NCBI RefSeq assembly: GCF_009937995.1
Contig: NZ_AP021881.1
Span: 2,170,001 to 2,234,000, forward strand
Source: Sulfuriferula nivalis
Lineage (GTDB): Bacteria > Pseudomonadota > Gammaproteobacteria > Burkholderiales > Sulfuriferulaceae
Reading direction: 5' to 3'
DNA length: 64,000 nucleotides
Made by a program: the position numbers and the translations under genes. Below the pieces are notes generated by a model, which saw only the letters and a program-made list of their open reading frames with translations, was not told where the DNA came from and made no database searches. Positions 14,309 to 19,802 of the stretch are shown piece after piece. Numbering within the stretch: position 1 is the first letter of the stretch; every line of letters begins with the position of its first letter.

Positions 14309-14352
14309 AATACTATCTGCATGATAAAAACCAGTGCATAAAATCCCGAAAT

Positions 14353-14369
14353 CGCACTAGACAAGTGCG
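14353..14369. promoter_or_regulatory. Upstream dyad, candidate enhancer-binding site for a sigma54 promoter
   Basis: CGCACT-AGACA-AGTGCG is a perfect 6-bp inverted repeat centred near 14361, about 88 bases before the predicted transcription start. That distance and symmetry are what sigma54 activator sites show. An alternative is a weak stem after mshN. No T-run follows it. Confidence 0.45.
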
Positions 14370-14400
14370 CCAATAACCGATCACAAAAAACATAACTTGA

Positions 14401-14412
14401 TGTTTATAAACA
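14401..14412. promoter_or_regulatory. Perfect 12-bp palindrome just upstream of the sigma54 promoter
   Basis: TGTTTATAAACA is fully self-complementary and ends 10 bases before the -24 element. It could be an IHF-like bendable AT-rich stretch or a regulator site. Short AT-rich palindromes also arise by chance. Confidence 0.3.
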
Positions 14413-14421
14413 AATAAATAT

Positions 14422-14438
14422 CTGGCACAGCAATTGCT
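14422..14438 (+). promoter_or_regulatory. Sigma54 (RpoN) -24/-12 promoter
   Basis: CTGGCAC-AGCAA-TTGCT matches the RpoN consensus (YTGGCAC, five bases, TTGCW) with correct spacing between the GG and GC elements. Transcription should begin near 14449. No protein-coding gene begins soon after it, but an intrinsic terminator lies about 87 bases downstream. Confidence 0.7.
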
Positions 14439-14448
14439 AATGTATGAG

Positions 14449-14536
14449 TGGGGCGTAGGAATGAGCAACTCAGACTTACAATCCGTTTTCATCCTCCATG
14501 CGGTATTTAAGGGCATCTTCGGATGCCCTCTTTTTT
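14449..14536 (+). ncRNA. Putative RpoN-dependent small RNA, about 87 nt
   Basis: Defined by a sigma54 promoter (14422-14438) at the 5' side and an intrinsic terminator ending at 14536. Within the predicted RNA a TGAG/CTCA mini-stem (14462-14465 / 14469-14472) and a pairing between AGGAATGA (about 14457-14464) and TCATCCT (about 14489-14495) with one bulge are alternative folds. A 27-codon ORF (14461-14544) starts inside but runs through the terminator, so I do not favour a coding role. It lies between mshN and yheS, in no known family that I recognise. Boundaries are inferred, not observed. Confidence 0.55.
14510..14536 (+). terminator. Intrinsic terminator with TTCG tetraloop
   Basis: GGGCATC-TTCG-GATGCCC (14511-14517 / 14522-14528) is a perfect GC-rich stem closed by a stable TTCG loop and followed by TCTTTTTT. 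This is a textbook intrinsic terminator. Confidence 0.9.
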
Positions 14537-14595
14537 GCGACTAACGCATGGCAGCAGCGTACAATAACGACTTTTCGTTTTAGCTCATCCTCACC

Positions 14596-19277: not shown

Positions 19278-19802
19278 TTATAAGTCGCCATTAGCACCCG
19301 CATTGACAATTTCTATCAAGCCGTTACGCACTTTCATGATTTTTGCTGTCAACTCAGGCGACATATGCGAAGCTTTTGACCATGCAGGCACATCCATGTC
19401 CATCATCACCAACCACGCTTTACCTGTATTATCTTCTATCAACGCGATTCTGCATGGCAGATAAATAGCAAAATCCACGTTCATATCAACCAGATCTTTA
19501 GCCGTAAGCGCATCACAAAACTGGTAGATCTCCATACGCCGCTGTGTACCGCCTACCATCGCCTCAACTTGCTTGGATAAAGGTAATTCTGCGACCAGTT
19601 TCAGGTTTAATTCGTTGGCGCGCAGCTTCATGGATTCAACCGCATCATCCATACTTACTCCCTTAGCCAAAGGGATTCTATAAACATTCGGCATGGTGGA
19701 TACGCTTGCGGCTGGCACAGTACTTGCTGCATGTACTGCAGGAGATAACAGAGCGATACTCAATACACAGGCAGCAGCAAGTTGGTTTAATTGCAGTTTC
19801 AT
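19278..19802 (-). CDS. Periplasmic DUF302 domain protein
   Basis: 174 residues: signal peptide MKLQLNQLAAACVLSIALLS ending near VHA, a short linker, then a DUF302-like domain with CDALTAKDLVDMN and YLPCRIALIEDNTGKAW. DUF302 proteins are small alpha/beta proteins of unknown function, sometimes linked to redox or sulfur metabolism. The ATG at 19802 has AAGGAT upstream and starts the signal peptide; a longer in-frame reading would extend into the acnA region. Divergent from acnA, sharing a short intergenic region. Confidence 0.83.
   Translation of the reverse strand: MKLQLNQLAAACVLSIALLSPAVHAASTVPAASVSTMPNVYRIPLAKGVSMDDAVESMKLRANELNLKLVAELPLSKQVEAMVGGTQRRMEIYQFCDALTAKDLVDMNVDFAIYLPCRIALIEDNTGKAWLVMMDMDVPAWSKASHMSPELTAKIMKVRNGLIEIVNAGANGDL

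Follow-up and report, generated by a model that had tools for sequence, protein, structure and literature searches.

A predicted sigma54-dependent small RNA gene with an NtrC-type site in Sulfuriferula and its relatives in other families of the order

Anatomy and conservation of the RNA gene

The window analyzed here, a stretch of 64,000 nucleotides (C1:2170001-2234000) of the 3.44 Mb Sulfuriferula genome, contains a predicted small RNA gene flanked on one side by the gene for a TPR protein, which closes an MSH-type locus, and on the other by a YheS-type ABC-F gene. The MSH label is taken from an earlier, sequence-only reading of this DNA; profile matches in that locus are to TPR only. The same reading proposed an RpoN-dependent small RNA with a -24/-12 promoter, a dyad about 88 bases upstream of the predicted start, and a TTCG-loop terminator, and all three elements were found again (Table 1). 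The expected transcription start is near 14449, 12 nt past the C at -12, and the center of the longer dyad stretch CGCACTAGACAAGTGCG (14353-14369) lies 88 nt 5' of it. The arms of the terminator stem, AGGGCATC and GATGCCCT, occupy 14510-14529 and are followed by a C and six T, the T run extending to 14536.

Table 1. Predicted features of the small RNA locus (window coordinates)
Feature	Position	Strand	Basis
Predicted NtrC-type activator site, dyad GCACTAGACAAGTGC	14354..14368	.	Sequence match; recurrence upstream of the -24 GG
Sigma54 -24/-12 promoter TGGCACAGCAATTGCT	14423..14438	+	Direct reading and genome pattern scan; spacing kept in 13/13 loci
Predicted small RNA, about 88 nt	14448..14536	+	Covariance-model match C1:2184448-2184536; the window copy is itself among the sequences building the model
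5' hairpin	14450..14484	+	9/10 pairs changed on both sides, 11 sequences
Conserved linker TTTTCATCCTCCATGCGGTATTT	14486..14508	+	Almost no change across the 11 aligned sequences
Putative anti-Shine-Dalgarno seed TCATCCTCC in the linker	14489-14497	+	Complementarity; predicted unpaired
Intrinsic terminator, TTCG-loop stem followed by CTTTTTT	14510..14536	+	Direct reading; compensatory stem changes

A blastn search with positions 14345-14545 yielded matches in 14 of the 18 genomes of the genus, the source genome included, and in one of 43 genomes outside the genus, where the match covers 24 terminator bases only. The conserved core is present in contigs of S. multivorans TTN and of Sulfuriferula metagenome-assembled genomes. 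The GG-N10-GC promoter spacing is retained in all 13 Sulfuriferula loci whose sequence extends far enough upstream (the 14th, L005, ends at a contig end before the promoter), and TGGCC replaces TGGCA in three of these promoters.

Comparison of 11 distinct RNAs from the genus supports the predicted structure. Changes on both sides affect 11 of 19 pairs; pairing is retained in 97.5% of cells, compared with 87.6% in shuffled alignments, and 27 cells are doubly changed, compared with 9.2 in shuffles. Both the 5' hairpin and the terminator covary. Few of the 5' hairpins are weaker than that of the window copy, and the window RNA folded alone forms other pairs. Across the genus the hairpin varies in sequence and the linker is almost constant, as in a structural arm combined with a pairing seed.

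In several species, frames across the fixed linker give a similar peptide for that stretch (SSSMRYLG). In the window copy, the frame that begins with the ATG at 14461 stays open, as could be expected of a messenger for a small protein starting at this ATG. Such a messenger is hardly credible, since no start codon with its frame is shared over the 11 RNAs compared, species differ by one or two bases in RNA length, and the base pairs covary. The sequence-only reading, too, had seen no convincing coding content.

The genomic context is variable. A TPR (MshN-like) gene adjoins four of the 14 loci and a YheS gene seven, some of these loci stopping at contig ends, and the RNA and its promoter persist elsewhere. 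From the position of the gene, a link to nitrogen or surface control had been suggested. Because the neighbors are not kept, we reject the surface part of this suggestion, that is, the connection with the MSH pilus; the nitrogen part agrees with the NtrC-type dyad described below.

Relatives in other families of the order

A covariance search of the kind proposed in the sequence-only reading reached relatives in other families. Model R1, built from 11 sequences of the RNA only, with no promoter, was searched over 399 genomes of the order and matched 17 of them at E <= 0.001, 11 of these in the genus. In five of the six matches outside the genus, a sigma54 promoter stands where it would be expected, and the sixth match lies directly after amtB. 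Model R2 comprises R1, these five sequences, and further copies from the genus (18 sequences, 17 distinct). All ten hairpin pairs covary in its alignment, which is fitted to the model and thus inflates such counts.

At E <= 0.01, R2 matched 132 of the 399 genomes. Not every one of these genomes can be taken as a holder of a relative, as a reading of 41 of the weaker matches showed: seven are sigma54 RNAs (L136, L138, L140, L142, L158, L160, and L168), eight are amtB 3' ends, four resemble S17, and the other 22 are either terminators or unclear. Two of the last group (L161 and L172) belong to Sulfuriferula itself and were left out of the set of 59 out-of-genus loci that were read from the top of the R2 list. 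Among these 59, a strict sigma54 motif occurs at most 60 nt upstream in 22 loci, five of which had helped to build R2; in 19 it is located 21-40 nt before the model start, and in three more it lies at other distances within these 60 nt. Elsewhere in the region from -1000 to +100 of the same loci, some of which are shorter, the motif was found four times. The families in which sigma54 RNAs were read are f1, f7, f13, f25, f36, f37, f46, f47, and f48. In L140 and L142 (family f47), the motif lies 51 nt upstream of where the model begins, and the seed differs (TTGAACCTCCTC); the RNA of these loci is probably a longer or diverged relative.

A combined pattern of the sigma54 motif and TTCANCCTCC was found in 26 of the 399 genomes, compared with one match for the reversed pattern. 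Eight of the matches are in the genus, five each in f13 and f37, three in f48, and one in f46; the other four (G020, G065, G033, and G167) look like chance and were set aside.

Another type of locus is represented by 11 of the 59, which are 3' ends of amtB immediately following the stop codon (L045, L055, L057, L133, L144, L145, L149, L154, L157, L162, and L167). They come from families f2, f15, f35, f42, f43, and f50; in this survey, which rests on best matches, no sigma54 RNA was read in any of these six families. CUCUCC or CCUCC precedes the terminator in seven of the 11, and the other four contain looser CU-rich stretches. Perhaps these 3' ends are a 3'-UTR version of the RNA.

Taken together, the covariation, the constant promoter spacing, and the sigma54 promoters of other families strongly support, by comparison, the prediction of an RpoN-dependent small RNA at this locus.

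The sigma54 promoter and the NtrC-type site

The strict sigma54 pattern occurs at 36 sites in the genome, compared with seven for the reversed pattern. One further strict match in the window, TGGCACAGTACTTGCT (19713-19728, plus strand), is situated about 130 nt 5' of an acnA-type reading frame and inside a gene on the opposite strand; it may be a chance match.

In five of the 13 genus loci, the palindromic motif GCACN7GTGC begins precisely 70 nt upstream of the -24 GG; in L012 it is found at -121. We scanned about 20-180 nt upstream of 12 genus promoters and 20 promoters from other families and compared the counts with those in shuffled sequences (L010 and L044 were left out for their short upstream sequence, and L140, L142, and L052 for failing the core filter). 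In the genus, the exact motif precedes six of the 12 promoters (0.09 expected) and a form with at most one mismatch precedes ten (1.4 expected). The respective counts for other families are one of 20 (0.15 expected; 30 of 200 shuffles gave as many) and 13 of 20 (3.0 expected). The longer form TGCACC-N5-GGTGCA was found before ten of the 20 other-family promoters with up to two mismatches (0.16 expected) and before 17 with up to three (2.2 expected); in the genus it precedes two (0.13 expected) and seven (1.2 expected) of the 12 promoters, respectively. Shuffles matched the observed counts only in the other-family exact class and in the genus two-mismatch class, the latter in one of 200. For the promoters of L007 and L009, the best NtrC-type match has two mismatches.

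The dyad is called NtrC-type by its similarity to the NtrC consensus, which comes from E. coli work. When 30 of the 36 strict sigma54 sites in the genome were examined for the dyad within 250 nt upstream, its exact form was observed at only two sites, one before this RNA and one before an ammonium-transporter gene. Looser forms precede glutamine-synthetase-like and ABC substrate-binding genes (names by eye). Judged by its match relative to shuffles and to the other sigma54 sites of the genome, the dyad is an NtrC-type site at the level of sequence. Comparison also shows the sigma54 promoter, the structure, and the conservation of the RNA.

The genome contains eight strong sigma54-activator domains; NtrC (gene at C1:131945) scores above the NCBIfam cut-off, and NifA is also above its cut-off. 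The sigma54-driven RNA could be controlled by NifA or by yet another activator and would then answer nitrogen fixation or some other signal instead of nitrogen limitation in general. In L007 and L010, a different dyad, TGCCCCAATGTGGGGCA, is found upstream of the RNA where the others have the NtrC-type site, and it is possibly the site of another activator or a changed site. We consider control by an activator other than NtrC unlikely, given that NtrC-type motifs outnumber those in shuffles within the genus as well as in other families, and that the exact dyad recurs upstream of the ammonium-transporter gene.

Seed, candidate targets, and comparison with known RNAs

The linker sequence UCAUCCUCC is complementary to GGAGGAUGA, an extended Shine-Dalgarno sequence. 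In the window copy, the predicted unpaired probability of the seed is 0.58-0.91 per base, and the RNA's own fold pairs part of it. Conservation of the linker continues past the seed (ATGCGGTATT), and pairing with Shine-Dalgarno sequences does not explain this part. The sigma54-driven RNA might accordingly act by binding a protein or by sponging other RNAs, not by covering ribosome sites. We give this mode of action little credence in view of the linker complementarity and of the precedent of S17 from Bordetella, an Hfq-dependent RNA with a CU-rich site that represses at ribosome binding sites in reporter tests (PMC11722255). Two Hfq genes, both above the family cut-off, are located at C1:1822906-1823088 and C1:929718-929891.

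An RNA resembling S17/bdhR1 is encoded by a separate gene in 17 of the 18 genus genomes, with scores of 37-50 bits, none above the gathering score of 50. In the genome studied here, this RNA is CU-rich, maps to C1:148573-148637 on the minus strand, and scores 48.8 bits. TTGACA-like promoter elements were seen upstream of the S17-like RNA in the six genomes read, with CTCCTCCATCCTCC in five of them. The window RNA and the S17-like RNA of the same genome have CAUCCUCC in common, too few bases to tell ancestry.

Candidate targets were sought with two patterns. A scan for CATGGAGGATGAA with at most two mismatches gave 88 sites (one of them the RNA gene itself), compared with 25 for the reversed sequence. 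No gene start stood out in the 29 loci read, and in glyA (assigned by eye) the site falls within the coding region. The pattern GGAGGAT-N2-11-ATG has 41 sites, compared with five for the reversed one; the 30 that were read include soxX, a hydrogenase large subunit, a persulfide-dioxygenase-like protein, and an MCE-type protein (by eye), among others.

We picked soxX (TIGR04485, 89.6 bits, cut-off 61) from this match list for its biology, before its conservation was examined. The sequence GGAGGATGACATG at the soxX start is identical in all 11 genus genes (L239-L249), though the adjoining upstream sequence differs; the conserved block is partly the Shine-Dalgarno sequence and the start codon. 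Upstream of the following two genes, identified by eye as soxY and soxZ, the spacer sequence is variable. Among 22 soxX loci from other families, some of which (L257, L273) may miss the true start codon, GGAGGATGA was found in two and GGAGGATG in six. The calculated duplex energy of the window RNA is -20.8 kcal/mol with soxX versus -9.9 with soxY; for the S17-like RNA with soxX it is only slightly less favorable (-18.8 kcal/mol). In the genus, ten genomes have both the RNA and soxX, four the RNA with no detected soxX, one soxX only, and three neither, a co-occurrence too weak to use as target evidence. On these sequence comparisons soxX is the best supported candidate, and we propose it as a target only tentatively.

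No Rfam family matches the window at its gathering score, and the weak echoes below these scores were rejected as evidence of identity. A close parallel in design is S17/bdhR1 (RF02278, a Betaproteobacteria toxic small RNA). It has the CU-rich linker with CAUCCUCC before the terminator and the anti-ribosome-site seed that we predict in the window RNA, and it shares CATCCTCCTCCTTTGG with some of the other-family relatives (by eye). However, the window RNA has no match to RF02278 up to E 5, and the best relative, L041, scores 25 bits against a gathering score of 50. S17 is described as processed from a longer RNA with a sigmaA promoter (PMC11722255), whereas the window RNA type has a sigma54 promoter next to its predicted start in 13 of 13 loci.

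A similar arrangement of hairpin, CU-rich linker, and terminator is found in MmgR (RF00519) and SorY (RF02651). Both are alphaproteobacterial families, and MmgR is under nitrogen control. L041 reaches 33.2 bits for SorY (gathering score 111), 22.8 for RF00519 (41), and 17.3 for RF02869 (46), and L049 reaches 26 bits for RF00519 (41). The window RNA scores 17.2 bits for SorY (111) and gives no match to RF00519 or RF02869. NcS25 of Burkholderia (RF02869) is an 84-nt RNA with a single-stranded seed against the Shine-Dalgarno sequence; we reject it as the same RNA, its authors having seen no upstream sigma54 motif and no change under nitrogen depletion (PMC10117139).

Two nitrogen-regulated RNAs offer functional parallels. 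NrsZ of Pseudomonas aeruginosa is an NtrB/C- and RpoN-dependent, nitrogen-regulated RNA with its own gene (PMC8395346). Unlike the window RNA, it is about 226 nt long, processed, encoded beside ntrC, and activates rhlA translation; no likeness was found at the Rfam level. GlnZ is the RpoN-dependent RNA arm of the NtrC regulon in Enterobacteriaceae and is released from the glnA 3' UTR and targets sucA (PMC9731577), whereas the window RNA has a promoter of its own; the amtB 3' ends of other families resemble GlnZ in layout. Descent from either is not indicated, as the window contains no Rfam match and the locus is beside neither ntrC nor glnA. CrcZ, which is about 407 nt long with several A-rich Hfq motifs (PMC8395346), was already noted as dissimilar in the sequence-only reading; the predicted RNA, 88 nt in length and free of A-rich repeats, does not look like an Hfq decoy of this type.

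In the literature covered, which comprised few full texts and little of the subscription literature, we found no small RNA of this order described as driven by sigma54 or NtrC. In that literature, a phrase of the type "RpoN-dependent sRNA" was met only for GlnZ (PMC9731577), and the covered text of a paper on Herbaspirillum small RNAs mentions neither NtrC nor RpoN (PMC7011215).

Most probably, the locus encodes a regulatory small RNA that acts in trans and belongs to the NtrC (nitrogen) regulon. We infer the following sequence of events. Under nitrogen shortage, phosphorylated NtrC would bind the dyad and activate the sigma54 polymerase at the -24/-12 promoter. The transcript, about 88 nt long and ending at the TTCG terminator, would expose the linker as a single strand between the 5' hairpin and the terminator stem. 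The sequence UCAUCCUCC would then pair with GGAGGAUGA at Shine-Dalgarno sequences, probably with the help of Hfq, and translation would be repressed. With soxX as the best supported target, a lack of nitrogen would lower the energy supply from sulfur.

A broader scenario, which we regard as speculative, is that of an order-wide RNA arm of the nitrogen regulon with an anti-Shine-Dalgarno seed, expressed either from its own NtrC/sigma54 promoter or from the 3' end of amtB. In Sulfuriferula it would be aimed at soxX, with nitrogen status throttling lithotrophic energy supply, beside an S17-like sibling that has the same seed under housekeeping control. The start site, the NtrC site, the seed, and the soxX pairing are separate predictions. 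If they are true, a small RNA family would be added to the short list of NtrC-controlled RNAs, one anti-ribosome seed would be run from two different promoters in a single genome, and nitrogen shortage would be connected with sulfur oxidation by a testable tie.
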